Source: Defluviitalea saccharophila
GTDB lineage: Bacteria; Bacillota; Clostridia; Lachnospirales; Defluviitaleaceae
Reading direction: 5' to 3'
NCBI RefSeq assembly: GCF_038396635.1
Contig: NZ_CP121687.1
Coordinates: 1,178,001 to 1,242,000 of the forward strand
DNA length: 64,000 nt
The translations under genes were made by a program, and so were the position numbers. Below the pieces are notes generated by a model. It had not been told where the DNA came from, ran no database searches, and was given only the letters and a program-made list of their open reading frames with translations. Positions within the stretch are counted from its first letter, which is position 1, and every line of letters starts with the position of its first letter. Positions 2,242 to 48,577 of the stretch are shown in pieces.

Positions 2242-2290
2242 CTTTTTATTGCATAAGAAATTCGGAAGAATTTCCTATGCGATAAAAAAT
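2242..2290 (+). repeat. Hairpin-only copy of the structured repeat
   Basis: A CTTTTT run is followed by an imperfect inverted repeat (arms 2248-2263 and 2268-2283, around a 4-base loop) and then an A-run. The same CTTTTT plus hairpin occurs at 18781-18822, and a diverged form at 48291-48333. The longer upstream core found at those two places is absent here, where the start of the pseudouridine synthase gene lies close by. On the minus strand it could also serve as a terminator for apt, since the complement ends in T-rich sequence. Confidence 0.7.
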
Positions 2291-5830: not shown

Positions 5831-6724
5831 TTATGCAGTTTTAGCAATTGATTTTTTATGGAATTCATACCATAAAGGACTTGCAATAAAGATAGAAGAA
5901 TAAGTTCCTGAAATAATTCCTACAATCAATGGCAATGCAAATTCTTTTATGGATGGTACACCTAAGAAATACAACATTGTTATAGTGACCAAGGTGGTTA
6001 TAGAAGTATTAATTGAGCGAACAATAGTCTGAGATACGCTCTTGTCTATTAGTCCTTCTAAATCGCCTTTTTTTGCTACTTTTTTATTTTCACGAATTCT
6101 ATCAAATACGACAATCGTATCATTGATGGAATAACCTACAATGGTTAGAATAGCAGCAATAAATGAATTATTAACTGGAACTCGTGCAATGGAATATACC
6201 GCTAATACGATGAATACGTCATGTATTAATGGCAATACAGCAGCAAGACCAAATCTCCAGTCTTTAAAACGCAGTGTAATATAAATAAGCATTAATATCG
6301 AAGATACAAGTAATGCCTGCAGTGCTTTGAGCTGCATTTCTGTACTGATGGTCGGAGAAACATCATCTACATTTAATAAATCATTCATTCCGTCTAAATT
6401 GTATTTGTCTTTTAAAGCATTGTATAATTTTGCTCTTGTTTCTGGATCTATAGATTTCGTCTTGATTGACACACCCTGAGCTCCAGAACGAGTAATCTGA
6501 GGATTTTCATCTCCTGTAATTTCTACAACAACAGGTCTAATATCATTTGCGATATCAAAGTCTTGTCCAATATTAACTTCCATTACGGTTCCGCCGATAA
6601 ATTCAACATCAAAATTTAAAATTCCATTACCCATAAATGCATTGATTGGCATGGCCAATAATCCTGCAAGAATAATGATAATTGAAATAGTAAACCAGGT
6701 TTTACGTTTTTCAATAATATTCAT
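5831..6724 (-). CDS. secF: Protein translocase subunit SecF
   Basis: SecF pairs with SecD to use the ion-motive force to help pull secreted proteins through SecYEG. The 297-residue protein has a first membrane helix at about 12-30 and an extracytoplasmic P1 domain (FIGGTVMEVNIG). Five further helices follow, with the SecF-typical D4 motif near YSINDTIVVFDRIRENKK. The ribosome site AAAGGAGG is well placed. The gene starts 14 bases after secD, so the two are one operon. Confidence 0.96.
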   Translation of the reverse strand: MNIIEKRKTWFTISIIIILAGLLAMPINAFMGNGILNFDVEFIGGTVMEVNIGQDFDIANDIRPVVVEITGDENPQITRSGAQGVSIKTKSIDPETRAKLYNALKDKYNLDGMNDLLNVDDVSPTISTEMQLKALQALLVSSILMLIYITLRFKDWRFGLAAVLPLIHDVFIVLAVYSIARVPVNNSFIAAILTIVGYSINDTIVVFDRIRENKKVAKKGDLEGLIDKSVSQTIVRSINTSITTLVTITMLYFLGVPSIKEFALPLIVGIISGTYSSIFIASPLWYEFHKKSIAKTA

Positions 6725-6738
6725 CTTCTCGGCCTCCT

Positions 6739-7965
6739 TTATTTCGCACCATATAGTTTTGGATTTTTCAGCCCGAGATTAACGAACTGCTTAACAATAA
6801 TTCTTGTAACTACCAATGCGGTGAACATTGAAACAAGAATACCGATGCCCAGAGTTTGTGCAAAACTTTTAATAAGCCCTGTACCGATCCAATATAATAC
6901 ACCTGCAGCGATTAATGTGGTTACATTTCCGTCTAAAATCGCAGAAAATGCTTTATCAAAACCTGCATCTACAGCAGCTCTTAAAGTTTTGCCCGCATTT
7001 AATTCTTCCTGAATTCTCGCAAAGATAATAACATTTGCATCTACCGCCATACCTACGGATAAGATGATACCAGCTATACCTGGAAGGGTTAATGTTGATT
7101 GTAAATAGCTTAAAATAATCACTACTACTCCACAGTAGAATAGTAAAGCTAAATCAGCAGCCAAGCCAGGAACTCTATATACAACAAGCATAAATAATAA
7201 TACTAAAATAATTCCAATAAAACCTGCTTTAAGACTGGTTTCTAATGCACTCGCACCTAATTTAGCACCAACGCTGTTACTTTGAAGTGGAGTCAATTTA
7301 AAAGGAAGTGCTCCGGCTTTAATTCTTGCAGCCAATTCATCCGCCTCTTCTATAGTACCAACACCTTCTATGATAGCATTCCCTTCAGTAATAACAGCAT
7401 TTACTTTTGGGGCACTGATAATTGTTTCATCAAGAGCAATCATAATAATTTGTCCAACATATTTTTCTGTTGCTTTTGCAAAAGCGTCTTTTCCTTTTGA
7501 ATTAAATTCTAAAGCAACAACTGCTTTTGTAATCCCATTATCATTAATCATTTCTCTTCTGGCATCTTTTACTTCATTACCAGTTAAAATAACTTCTCCT
7601 TCAGGGCTAAGGAATTGAAGCTGTGCAGTTGCACCAATATCTTCTATAGCCTTATTAGGATCTTCTACTCCGGGTATATCTACACGGATTCTTCTATTTC
7701 CTTCTCTAGCTACTTCTGCTTCTGTGTAATTACCACGGTCCAATCTTCCTTGAATCATTTCAATGGCAGCACTCATCTCTTCAGCGGTAGGATTTTCTTT
7801 ATCAGCTTCATAAACAATATTCACTCCACCTTTTAAATCCAATCCCTGTCTGATGTTTTGAGCACCTAAAAAATTATTTTCACCAATTCCAAAATAGGCT
7901 ACTCCGCCTGTCAGTCCAATAAGAACGACAATTAAAAGTAATATCAATCCGCTCTTGACTTTCAT
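6739..7965 (-). CDS. secD: Protein translocase subunit SecD
   Basis: SecD forms the SecDF complex that drives late steps of Sec-dependent export. The protein has an N-terminal helix and the conserved QNIRQGLDLKGGVNIVYE motif at the start of the P1 domain. The C-terminal RND-like helices contain LPGIAGIILSVGMAVDANVIIFARI. I chose the ATG at 7965 (408 residues, MKVKSGL) because GGGAGA lies just upstream of it. An in-frame ATG at 7983 lacks its own ribosome site. The short size is normal for Gram-positive SecD. Confidence 0.95.
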   Translation of the reverse strand: MKVKSGLILLLIVVLIGLTGGVAYFGIGENNFLGAQNIRQGLDLKGGVNIVYEADKENPTAEEMSAAIEMIQGRLDRGNYTEAEVAREGNRRIRVDIPGVEDPNKAIEDIGATAQLQFLSPEGEVILTGNEVKDARREMINDNGITKAVVALEFNSKGKDAFAKATEKYVGQIIMIALDETIISAPKVNAVITEGNAIIEGVGTIEEADELAARIKAGALPFKLTPLQSNSVGAKLGASALETSLKAGFIGIILVLLFMLVVYRVPGLAADLALLFYCGVVVIILSYLQSTLTLPGIAGIILSVGMAVDANVIIFARIQEELNAGKTLRAAVDAGFDKAFSAILDGNVTTLIAAGVLYWIGTGLIKSFAQTLGIGILVSMFTALVVTRIIVKQFVNLGLKNPKLYGAK

Positions 7966-9516: not shown

Positions 9517-9561
9517 TCTATCACTCCAATTTCTATTTTAGTACATTATATTTTATACAGT

Positions 9562-9589
9562 AAAAAAGCAGCGACTTAATGCCACTGCC
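9562..9589 (-). terminator. Weak terminator or attenuator between scfA and scfB
   Basis: On the minus strand GCAGTGGC and GTCGCTGC pair (8 bp including two wobbles, ATTAA loop) and are followed directly by TTTTTT. It lies between the peptide gene and its maturase. Partial termination here would give more precursor peptide than enzyme. Confidence 0.6.
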
Positions 9590-15135: not shown

Positions 15136-15257
15136 AATCGTTCTCCATTCCAATCATTTATAAAGTGTATGTAATATTTTCACCTAATTATAAAGAAATT
15201 TTTCTTGCATTTCAATAAGAAAGCGTTTCGCTAAGGATTTTCTATGTAATTAAAAAC

Positions 15258-18479: not shown

Positions 18480-18683
18480 ATGAATAGAGTACATTATCAA
18501 GTAAATGGTATGCAGAATGAAAACTATAAGAATCAAATCAAAAATGCATTGGATAAAATCGAAGGGGTACAAATGGTCAATGTGGATTTAGTGAGGGGCT
18601 CTGTAGAAGTAGGTTATAATGAGCCTGCTGATGAAAATGAAATTAAAGAATGTATCGAAAAAACCGGATGTACAATCGAATGA
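18480..18683 (+). CDS. HMA-like small protein lacking the metal-binding cysteines
   Basis: This 67-residue protein has the pattern of a heavy-metal-associated ferredoxin-like domain: YQVNGMQNENYKNQIKNAL, then IEGVQMVNVDLVRGSVEVGY, then EIKECIEKTGC. In copper chaperones the GMxCxxC loop binds metal. Here the loop reads GMQNENY, with no cysteine, so copper binding by the normal site is not possible. It has a strong ribosome site, AAAGGAG. The structured repeat copy begins four bases after its stop codon and may form its 3' end. Confidence 0.75.
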   Translation: MNRVHYQVNGMQNENYKNQIKNALDKIEGVQMVNVDLVRGSVEVGYNEPADENEIKECIEKTGCTIE

Positions 18684-18686
18684 ATT

Positions 18687-18822
18687 CAAGAAAGGGGTTC
18701 GCTTGCGAAACTCTCGCGCCGAGCGCGGTCGGCAAAACCGGCAAAATACAATACGCGAGAGTGTACATTCGCCCGGAGGGCTTTTTATTGCATAGGAAAT
18801 TTGAAGGAATTTCCTATGCAAT
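18687..18822 (+). repeat. Structured repeat, copy 1 (core 18687-18786 plus hairpin 18787-18822)
   Basis: The 100-base core aligns without gaps to 48197-48296 with about 15 differences by eye. It folds into a first hairpin (TTCG CTTG CGAA), then a long stem CTCTCGCG/CGCGAGAG that encloses CCGA-loop-TCGG and an A-rich strand. A short GCCC GGA GGGC hairpin and TTTTT close the core. Behind it lies a perfect 15-bp hairpin (arms 18787-18801 and 18808-18822). It follows the HMA-like gene directly. It could be a small RNA, a 3' UTR element or a miniature mobile repeat. Confidence 0.8.
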
Positions 18823-18824
18823 AA

Positions 18825-18852
18825 AATAGGTACCTGCTTTCAGGTACCTATT
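18825..18852 (-). terminator. Terminator of the DUF4236 gene
   Basis: AATAGGTACCTG pairs with CAGGTACCTATT. The minus strand continues with a T-rich stretch into the repeat hairpin. Confidence 0.7.
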
Positions 18853-18861
18853 TATTGTTCC

Positions 18862-19965
18862 TCAATGTCTGGATATTCTTTCCACCGGGCTAAATCCCTT
18901 AGTCTTCACAAACTTCATATTATGTTTGAAATTATTCAAAGCATCTGACGGGTCTATGGATTCAAAATTAAGCCTGTTTAATACTTCTTTATTAAATACA
19001 ACAGACAAAATAGTTTTTTCCTCGTTATGTCCTGTTTCCGTATTAAGTATATTATCCACCGCATGAACAATCACAATACTAACCGGCAGCAGGGCAAAGA
19101 TATCCCTTGCAATTCTGATGGCACAACTGCAGACATAATCTTGTACGATTTCATAATAAGCTGTTTTGCTCAAGGCTTTTTTTGATAATTTGCCTGTTTG
19201 GGTAAGCGTCAGGGAGAAATTAGGTACAATTGTTTCAGATTTAACTTTAATTTCCACCTCAAGAGTATTAGGATCATTCATACCAAATTCAAAATCACTG
19301 CCAAATTCCAAAAGATCATCCAATGGATTCATTTCTTCTATGACTTCTAAGTACGCATCGATATCTCCTGCAATAATACGCTCAGCTAGTCCGTGTAGTT
19401 TTTTCCATTCCACATAGTCTTCCCTGTCTTCTTTGGCAGCCTTTTCAATTGAATTTTTTAATTCCAGCTCCTTTTTTTCCCTTAGGCTCTTAATCAGTTT
19501 TTGGAGAAAATTAGGCTTATATTTTTCAAGAGCTTCTATTGCCTTTGCTTGTTTAGGACCAATCCCTTGAGGATTAAAAGGCCCATTTAAAGAATAAATT
19601 TGATGCCAATCCACGGCCTCGTCACATTCTTTATGGATACCTCGAAGTACTTCAATTAAATTATTGTATTCTTCTACAAGCAGTGCATTTCTTTGTCGTT
19701 CATCCTTTATTTGCTGGGCTTTTTGTGATTGTATCTGCTGTCTTTTATTATAAGCGGAAGAAGAATATTTGCGTTTGCTTCCTCCTGAGGAAGTGACATA
19801 AGAAATTCCTGTTCCGGGAATGCCGATGGAGGATGTTCTTCTGCCACTGGAATGAATACTATATCTTAGACCTTTTGTTCCAAAACTTAAACTTGTTCCC
19901 TTTTTGCCTAAGTTTAATCGAACACCTTTGCCAAGCTTTATACTTTTGCGCATTCTAAGTCCCAT
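18862..19965 (-). CDS. DUF4236-domain protein
   Basis: This 367-residue protein starts with the DUF4236 signature (RMRKSIKLGKGVRLNLGKKG, then SLSFGTKGLRYSIHSSGRR and GIPGTGISYVTS), a glycine-rich beta-strand region of about 60 residues. A charged helical segment follows (residues 75-190), and then a C-terminal domain without recognised motifs. No membrane helix or catalytic motif is visible. The function of DUF4236 is unknown. Ends by its own terminator. Confidence 0.8.
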   Translation of the reverse strand: MGLRMRKSIKLGKGVRLNLGKKGTSLSFGTKGLRYSIHSSGRRTSSIGIPGTGISYVTSSGGSKRKYSSSAYNKRQQIQSQKAQQIKDERQRNALLVEEYNNLIEVLRGIHKECDEAVDWHQIYSLNGPFNPQGIGPKQAKAIEALEKYKPNFLQKLIKSLREKKELELKNSIEKAAKEDREDYVEWKKLHGLAERIIAGDIDAYLEVIEEMNPLDDLLEFGSDFEFGMNDPNTLEVEIKVKSETIVPNFSLTLTQTGKLSKKALSKTAYYEIVQDYVCSCAIRIARDIFALLPVSIVIVHAVDNILNTETGHNEEKTILSVVFNKEVLNRLNFESIDPSDALNNFKHNMKFVKTKGFSPVERISRH

Positions 19966-48196: not shown

Positions 48197-48333
48197 CAAG
48201 AAAGAGTTTCGTTTGCGGAACTCTCTCGCCGAGCGTAGTCGGCAAAACCAACAAAATTCAATACGGGAGAGTGTGCATCCTGCCGGAGGGCTTTTTGTTA
48301 CATAGAAATCTAGAAGAATTTTCTATGTAACAA
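48197..48333 (+). repeat. Structured repeat, copy 2 (core 48197-48296 plus hairpin 48295-48333)
   Basis: It aligns without gaps to copy 1 at 18687. Stems are GAGTTTCG/CGGAACTC (8 pairs, one wobble) and CTCTCTCG/CGGGAGAG (8 pairs, one wobble), with CCGA-loop-TCGG inside. The last hairpin is TTGTTACATAGAAA/TTTCTATGTAACAA, a perfect 14-bp stem whose bases differ from copy 1 on both sides together. It lies between two minus-strand genes, so it must be transcribed on its own or from the plus strand if it acts as RNA. Confidence 0.8.
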
Positions 48334-48359
48334 AAAAAGTCCGGTATATCGGACTTTTT
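48334..48359 (-). terminator. Terminator downstream of the PspC gene
   Basis: AAAAAGTCCG pairs with CGGACTTTTT around a short AT loop. The minus strand continues into TTTGTTAC of the repeat hairpin. Confidence 0.8.
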
Positions 48360-48367
48360 AACAGGTT

Positions 48368-48577
48368 TCATCTTAAATCTCTATACTCATCATCTACAGG
48401 CATTACTGCCCAACAAATAATATAAAGTAAAAATCCCGGAAATCCTGTACTCATAAGAGTTAATAAAACCCACAAAATACGGACTAACGTAGGATCAAAA
48501 TCAAAATACTCAGCAATTCCTCCGCAAACTCCTGCGATCTTTTTGTCTCTGCTGGATAAATGTAATCTTTTTTGCAT
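48368..48577 (-). CDS. PspC-domain membrane protein
   Basis: This 69-residue protein has the PspC pattern: KKIAGVCGGIAEYFDFDPTL, VRILWVLLTL and GFPGFLLYIICWAVMP. It has a membrane helix. PspC homologues take part in envelope stress responses, but this short form is widespread and of uncertain role. I chose the ATG at 48577 because AGAAGGAGGGATCGTG precedes it. Confidence 0.88.
   Translation of the reverse strand: MQKRLHLSSRDKKIAGVCGGIAEYFDFDPTLVRILWVLLTLMSTGFPGFLLYIICWAVMPVDDEYRDLR

Follow-up and report, generated by a model that had tools for sequence, protein, structure and literature searches.

The IS200/IS605 transposons and their ends-only derivatives, the palindrome-associated transposable elements (PATEs), are the closest described systems in working to the element analysed here, a non-coding sequence of about 145 bases that occurs twice in full in a 64,000-nucleotide stretch of Defluviitalea saccharophila DNA (NZ_CP121687.1, positions 1,178,001 to 1,242,000 of the forward strand; this whole stretch is called the window). 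Like a PATE of the IS200/IS605 type, the element has hairpins at both ends and no terminal inverted repeats (on inspection, neither end is an inverted copy of the other), and it inserts 3' of a short T-rich sequence that is retained at its left flank; with resident IS200 copies it shares the kind of target. Unlike IS200/IS605, it has neither tnpA nor tnpB and no autonomous parent was found among the fetched loci; its middle is conserved and folded, its target is a whole terminator and a guide-like arm lies 3' of the hairpin. To our knowledge, a guide 3' of the left-end hairpin is a layout known only from engineered IS608.

Other small repeats are less similar. A classical miniature inverted-repeat transposable element differs from the element, which has no terminal inverted repeats and no clear duplication (a 2-bp ambiguity). 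REP/BIME sequences are extragenic palindromes linked to Y1-type proteins, the RAYTs, and RAYT-like genes are present in some carriers of the element; a RAYT was rejected as parent, however, since the printed RAYT-like genes are flanked by other palindromes and no element match was found near the fetched loci. RUP, BOX and ERIC are further small structured bacterial repeats that are short, non-coding and foldable and show mobile behaviour. The same is true for bcr1 (PMC2267715), which was compared by description and for which no terminator targeting was seen in that source. In its target, the element comes closest to group IIC (class C) introns, which likewise insert at intrinsic terminators (excerpt of PMC4424553). 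Unlike these, it has only about 145 nt, with no ribozyme domain found and no reverse transcriptase, for which there is no room, and some of its carriers are without any RVT_1 match.

The family to which the element belongs is real and spans the order; its members are mobile, non-coding and aimed at terminators. It is missing from Rfam and has therefore probably been overlooked in annotation.

Copies in the window and spread of the family

The initial annotation had described a two-copy structured repeat with compensatory stem changes. Its two cores, 18687-18786 and 48197-48296, align without gaps and with exactly the claimed 15 differences per 100 bases; the second-best ungapped match to the 100-mer on either strand of the window reaches 43/100, and a repeat search of the window returned 129 nt with 82% identity between the two copies. 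CTTTTT closes both cores and leads into the long hairpin described, and the quoted stem changes are present in the sequence. The element reaches slightly further than the noted core, to about 18826 and 48336. Its parts are as follows:

18687..18826, + strand (element orientation; the gene-sense strand is -): full copy 1
18694..18713, + strand: hairpin H1 of copy 1, the right-end hairpin in gene-sense reading
18714..18770, + strand: folded core of copy 1 with stems P1 and P2 and hairpin H3, from the order-wide alignment
18771..18781, + strand: small hairpin H4 of copy 1, GCCCGGAGGGC
18782..18789, + strand: arm of copy 1, complementary to the target T-tract, proposed guide
18790..18819, + strand: terminal (left-end) hairpin H5 of copy 1
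18820..18828, - strand: target terminator T-tract and insertion point of copy 1, TATTTTATT on the - strand
18828..18849, - strand: terminator-like stem, 3' of the - strand open reading frame (ORF) that ends at 18862
48197..48336, + strand: full copy 2, with a copy at the same locus in genome G002 (L130)
48292..48299, + strand: arm of copy 2, TTTTTGTT, a match to the target of this copy, AACAAAAA
48300..48328, + strand: terminal (left-end) hairpin of copy 2
48337..48356, - strand: terminator-like stem, 3' of the - strand ORF that ends at 48368

Along the + strand of the window, H1 is followed by the core (outer stem P1, inner stem P2, hairpin H3), by H4, by TTTTT and the arm, by H5 and then by the T-tract and stem of the opposite-strand terminator; the order on the gene-sense strand is terminator stem, T-tract, H5, arm, H4, core, H1 and T-rich tail. 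The terminal hairpin supplies the strong fold (z -5.3 and -4.4), whereas the 106-nt cores alone fold barely better than shuffled sequence (z -1.2 and -1.5).

The description as two-copy holds inside the window only. When the window's genome (G000; 3.01 Mb, one contig) was queried with a window copy, 38 near-full and three partial places were found (40 of 105 candidates scored), with near-full matches down to E 1e-51, and many more partial copies came from the hairpin: the terminal-hairpin pattern has, with up to three mismatches, at least 57 matches per strand in G000, and several of the 28 additional hairpin-bearing stretches that were fetched also contain part of the core. A plain DNA search of 57 genomes found the element in all three of the genus (G000; G001, with at least 15 copies; and G002) and in one of the 54 outside the genus (G011, a single diverged copy). 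The exact 33-base core pattern matched 11 stretches, all in the 'Candidatus Epulonipiscium' assemblies JAAYMW and JAAYPH, although records near the window's genome were possibly outside this search; NCBI places 'Candidatus Epulonipiscium' in Lachnospirales.

The covariance-model search of related genomes that the initial annotation had proposed widened this range considerably. The model, R1, was built from an alignment of 72 rows (A2; 71 from the genus and one from G011, with L136, which holds one full copy, left out) and used a first version of the core fold (H2, TCGCGC/GCGCGA) instead of P1/P2. It matches 82 of 392 Lachnospirales genomes at E <= 0.001, and 51 of these genomes reach E <= 1e-10; the E-values are approximate and no more than eight candidates per genome were scored. 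Its scores outside the genus reach 138 bits. The positive genomes comprise 65 in family f6, four in f1, to which the window belongs, and 13 elsewhere. All four f1 positives belong to the window's genus, the other listed f1 genomes (G003-G006) having no match; the 13 elsewhere have best E-values of 3e-10 to 7e-4, and some of these are perhaps chance matches. An order-wide alignment (A4, 58 rows) was assembled from three genus copies and 55 of 56 distant loci (16 from the R1 search and 40 more); L231, cut by a contig end, was left out of it and of the folding count below.

Comparison of the window and of 18 distant loci with Rfam gave no family at the gathering threshold, and a permissive scan of 18600-18900 returned sub-threshold matches only, among them a group II score of 10.8 bits. 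No element match was found in the plasmids searched, and none of the phages searched with the genus consensus matched; in the phage search, the sequence of a distant member matches 11 unannotated faecal contigs, and two IMG/VR pattern matches were rejected as they look like GC-rich coding matches. No description of the element was seen in the open-access paper listings searched.

Plain terminators with chance palindromes, and thus no element at all, have practically no probability left. The terminal hairpin by itself is indeed A/T-rich and common in G000, but this reading is refuted by the near-full matches, by model scores of more than 100 bits in other genera and by the filled and unoccupied sites described below; a reversed control pattern gave no match.

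Terminator context, filled and unoccupied sites

The insertion context is constant: the element adjoins an intrinsic terminator of the opposite strand, at its T-tract. We folded the 50 nt adjoining each element end with RNA parameters and counted folds below -8 kcal/mol. On the H5 side, 92% of the 64 copies from the genus and 96% of the 55 distant ones fall below this cut-off, on the H1 side only 11% and 25%, respectively, and 95-145 nt farther out on the terminator side 27% and 45%. A T-rich target is present at the left flank in 62 of the 64 genus copies, in 43 in the common form TTT(A/G)TT. At six loci (L036, L046, L165, L166, L218 and L228) a T-box leader ends 13-25 nt before the element, two of them scoring at or above the gathering threshold, and at L011 a SAM riboswitch lies 31 nt before it; the nine sources of this check were picked by eye and give no rate (L122 repeats L036, and L210 gave nothing). 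As a separate observation, the element copy at L011 (1363-1772) is flanked by two tandem SAM riboswitch aptamers.

Five loci are filled in one of the three genus genomes and unoccupied in another, one of them with a clean junction: a G002 copy is missing from G000 at position 9558/9559 of the window, where a plain terminator T-tract remains, and the same terminator is also filled in G001. This cleanest pair has a 2-bp ambiguity at the junction and no clear target-site duplication; the other pairs are too diverged. G000 also lacks a second G002 copy (L125:7518), and the sites of the G000 copies at 2924816, 2002878 and 2007830 are unoccupied in G001. More complex histories are found at the 2006009 locus, with clearly different copies in G000 and G002 and a hairpin remnant in G001, and at the 2932872 locus, with a copy in G000, a decayed part in G001 and other sequence in G002, there a gene of about 600 bases that we take to encode a flavodoxin-type quinone oxidoreductase (L103, G002:C114, 489-1285). 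At L236 (150-480; the record is partly masked), parts of other copies adjoin a full copy on both sides in head-to-tail order, and the right end of one element is the target of the next. The window itself contains three further sites:

2242..2287, + strand: hairpin-only copy of the same family, adjoining a - strand terminator-like stem at 2294-2312
9551..9568: unoccupied terminator site with its junction at about 9558/9559; full copy there in G002, copy in G001
15214..15255, + strand: internally deleted element remnant, full at the same place in G002

A small RNA, a 3'-end element and a miniature mobile element had all been offered initially as readings, and the dispersed copies, the filled and unoccupied sites, the constant context and the tandem arrangement uphold the last.

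Mode of movement

We lean towards the view that the family is a non-autonomous, IS200/IS605-like family of single-strand DNA transposons aimed at terminators. That a Y1 enzyme moves it is suggested by the target, the end structure, the lack of a clear duplication and precedent. A Y1 (HUH) transposase of the IS200/IS605 type would excise the gene-sense strand as single-stranded DNA, with H5 as left end, immediately 3' of the target that is retained (for instance TTTTTATT), and H1, followed by a T-rich cleavage site, as right end. The terminator, as a DNA hairpin with a T-tract, would mimic the right end of the element; pairing between the T-tract and the arm on the 3' side of H5 (CAATAAAAA, for instance) would position the insertion. 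The elements of about 145 bp lie in one orientation directly 3' of the terminator stem and T-tract, and a landing behind the terminator spares the gene. The conserved folded middle (P1-P2-H3) would perhaps serve transposase binding, and DNA-level events, for example template switching, could invert the near-perfect hairpins or perfect them further once the element is inserted.

Resident Y1 genes are consistent with this view. G000 carries five IS200-type genes that are nearly identical, together with a RAYT-like one, and G001 has two Y1 genes. A left end could be defined at 11 of 38 fetched Y1 loci (seven from G000 and G001, four from distant genomes), and all 11 of these IS200-type left ends (L133-L139, L175, L177, L179 and L192) sit directly 3' of a hairpin with a T-rich tail; the 50-nt folds at these ends range from -10.0 to -31.9 kcal/mol, and 5/11 sequences 120 nt farther upstream are below -8 kcal/mol as well. 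Element copies are found near or adjoining IS200 at L135 and L136, and at the latter (G001) the position of the IS200 coincides exactly with the junction at the left end of a full element copy. The family joins group IIC introns, and apparently the IS200 copies of these genomes, as a kind of element for which an intrinsic terminator is a safe place to land.

The copy-specific pairing between arm and target also fits this view. Among 93 hairpins of the genus (64 from full copies, 29 from partial or hairpin-only copies, some of them sharing a locus between genomes), the arm forms 401/465 Watson-Crick pairs with its own target over five positions, compared to 365.9 (sd 3.8) in permutations, and none of 5000 permutations was as high; for the 38 G000 copies alone the values are 175/190 and 159.6 (sd 2.1), again with 0/5000 as high. 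Counted from the TAGG of the hairpin, the excess falls on bases 6 and 7 (76 vs 60.0 and 79 vs 64.1 of 93), with no excess at positions 4 and 8, little at 5 and none at 9-12. The arm may guide insertion; alternatively, the hairpins may have been perfected after insertion. PMC5934647 describes that IS608 TnpA accepts an engineered guide 3' of the left-end hairpin, which pairs with the target upstream of the cleavage site, and that guide-bearing IS608 selects complementary targets in vitro. A bolder version, which we put forward only tentatively, is a natural single-strand DNA transposon in which an extended DNA guide, carried by the element next to the left-end hairpin, programs T-tract insertion throughout the order, while the folded terminator mimics the right end; the guide would be re-copied from the target by template switching, re-programming the element at each site, and the core would be a new transposase-binding or RNA module. 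Such an element would be the natural counterpart of the engineered IS608 guide extension.

Several points weigh against a Y1-driven transposon with a guide. Membership of IS200/IS605 is unproven, since the search gave no autonomous relative that shares these ends: none of the 38 fetched Y1 loci, which are not all Y1 genes of the carriers, has element ends around the gene, and the hairpins of the resident IS200 copies are unlike H5 and H1 in sequence. Canonical IS200/IS605 elements are not known to need a conserved folded middle. No Y1 gene was found in G002 (78% complete). Among 20 distant carriers, 19 have some Y1 match, but a strong IS200-like match (E <= 1e-33) is present in only 13 (one has a stop), a count that slightly lowers our confidence in the Y1 reading; in six there are only RAYT-like matches or fragments, and G354, with at least eight copies, has no Y1 match. 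The arm/target excess rests on the two positions named above. At one locus, the target is the same in three genomes and only the arm of G001 matches fully, while G002 keeps the common base, and at the 2006009 locus the arm differs between two very close genomes; therefore, the match between arm and target could also arise after insertion. The empty state of G000 at 9558/9559 may reflect excision or independent insertions in G001 and G002, a terminator stem is not evident by eye at L125:7518, and the flanks of all filled/unoccupied pairs except for the clean one have diverged. Finally, IS200/IS605 elements prefer the lagging-strand template (PMC5371812). The element lies on the G-poor strand in 35 of 38 G000 copies, a bias no greater than gene direction explains (p = 0.14; 120 of 142 ORFs in the stretches checked are leading-strand), and targeting of a replication strand was not retained as an explanation.

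It is conceivable, if unlikely, that a terminator-targeting mobile element of this kind is moved by a non-Y1 enzyme, be it another HUH nuclease, an unknown recombinase or a plasmid or phage protein. The lack of both Y1 and RVT_1 matches in G354, the further six carriers with nothing beyond RAYT-like matches or fragments, the absence of an autonomous relative around a Y1 gene in the fetched loci and the conserved middle, unusual for Y1 elements, all speak for such an enzyme; the identical kind of site at 11/11 definable IS200 left ends and a layout that fits the IS608 precedent (PMC5934647) speak for Y1, and old copies do not require an enzyme that is still present.

Group IIC introns share the terminator target (PMC4424553, in part), and a bacterial retroelement resembling short interspersed nuclear elements, the RNA of which is copied at the T-tract by the reverse transcriptase of such an intron, was considered as well. 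The T-tract could prime on an A-rich 3' end, and the three partial copies from the genome search all retain the hairpin end. However, RVT_1 was not found in G001 (100% complete, at least 15 copies), in G002 and in 5/20 distant carriers (the other 15 have a match), and no intron domain scored above the Rfam threshold. Truncation at the 5' end was rejected as a sign of reverse transcription: most partial copies came from the hairpin search and cannot count as support because they were found via the hairpin itself, the partial copy at L102 keeps the opposite end, and two reduced copies are internal deletions that retain parts of both ends. We regard this retroelement as very improbable. Separately, G000 contains two 434-codon frames with reverse transcriptase matches (6301-6942 and 2582942-2583583; L131 and L132), for which no counterpart was found in G001 and G002 and which have no element match nearby.

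A relation to TnpB and its omega RNA was also rejected: the sole PF07282 match in four genomes is a Cas12f/TnpB-like gene, and the element was not seen in its printed flanks. This frame of 489 codons (L147:307-1773, G000:2467691 region) is followed by a CRISPR-like array with the repeat GTTTTAAAACAACCATAGTTGAGATGGAAC.

Probable hairpin turnover and the core fold

Returning to the transposon that we favour, its hairpins appear to change at the DNA level. G000 and JAAYPH have flanks that are 99.2% alike at four common loci and are probably one species; at these loci the element differs in 21/566 columns and the flanks in 25/3201. Within the element, the differences fall inside hairpins or next to them. 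They include a loop inversion at one locus, where one genome has AA and the other TT in the loop of H1. Across the genus, 42/71 H1 loops are of the TTG or TTA type, 16/71 of the AAG or AAA type and 13 are other. These changes resemble hairpin inversion or template switching of DNA, either of which can yield paired changes without RNA selection; the paired changes in the genus are thus no proof of an RNA.

The initial annotation had taken paired change as what a conserved RNA shows, and this stands only in part. Within A2, there are 83 double-changed cells, compared to 27.5 in shuffles, but the four core helices alone have only 18 vs 10.8 (11/500 shuffles as high), and most of the signal therefore lies in H5; this excess in the terminal hairpin fits DNA hairpin mutation. 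More generally, compensatory stem changes in bacterial repeats may reflect turnover of DNA hairpins and are not, on their own, evidence for an RNA.

What stands is the conservation across genera. In A4, 267 double-changed cells compare to 86.3 in shuffles, H1 is paired in 97.3% and H5 in 95.1% of cells, and H1 has up to four pair types at a single position. By columns, P2 is 75% and H3 66% paired, partly as a result of alignment shifts; the P2 column count is unreliable as many rows were shifted by the aligner, and a row-wise test was used instead (a few rows, for example L223, are mis-parsed). The mean longest P2 stem is 6.22 for arms of the same sequence and 5.50 for shuffled arms, and in the 28 rows without the common arm GAGCGCG it is 6.21 vs 4.86, with a maximum of 5.46 in 300 shuffles. 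Conservation of the core fold thus extends over genera, be it in RNA or in single-stranded DNA: compensatory change within a conserved fold is found order-wide, and single-stranded DNA would show the same.

This conservation, with replacement of whole stems, is what a structured RNA or regulatory element kept by the host for its function and dispersed by duplication would also show; H4 with TTTTT can be read as a terminator in element orientation, and some loci have kept their copy in related genomes. Yet the same locus is found filled, unoccupied, as a remnant and deleted in three genomes, every base pair assumed for the core is disrupted in 2 to 15 of the 72 rows of A2, and the constant context is a terminator, which makes a host function rather improbable. 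In copy 1 of the window, single-sequence folding of the core favours an alternative pairing, CTCTCGCG/CGCGAGAG, and H1 resembles a terminator, followed on the - strand by the T-rich tail TTTCTTG.
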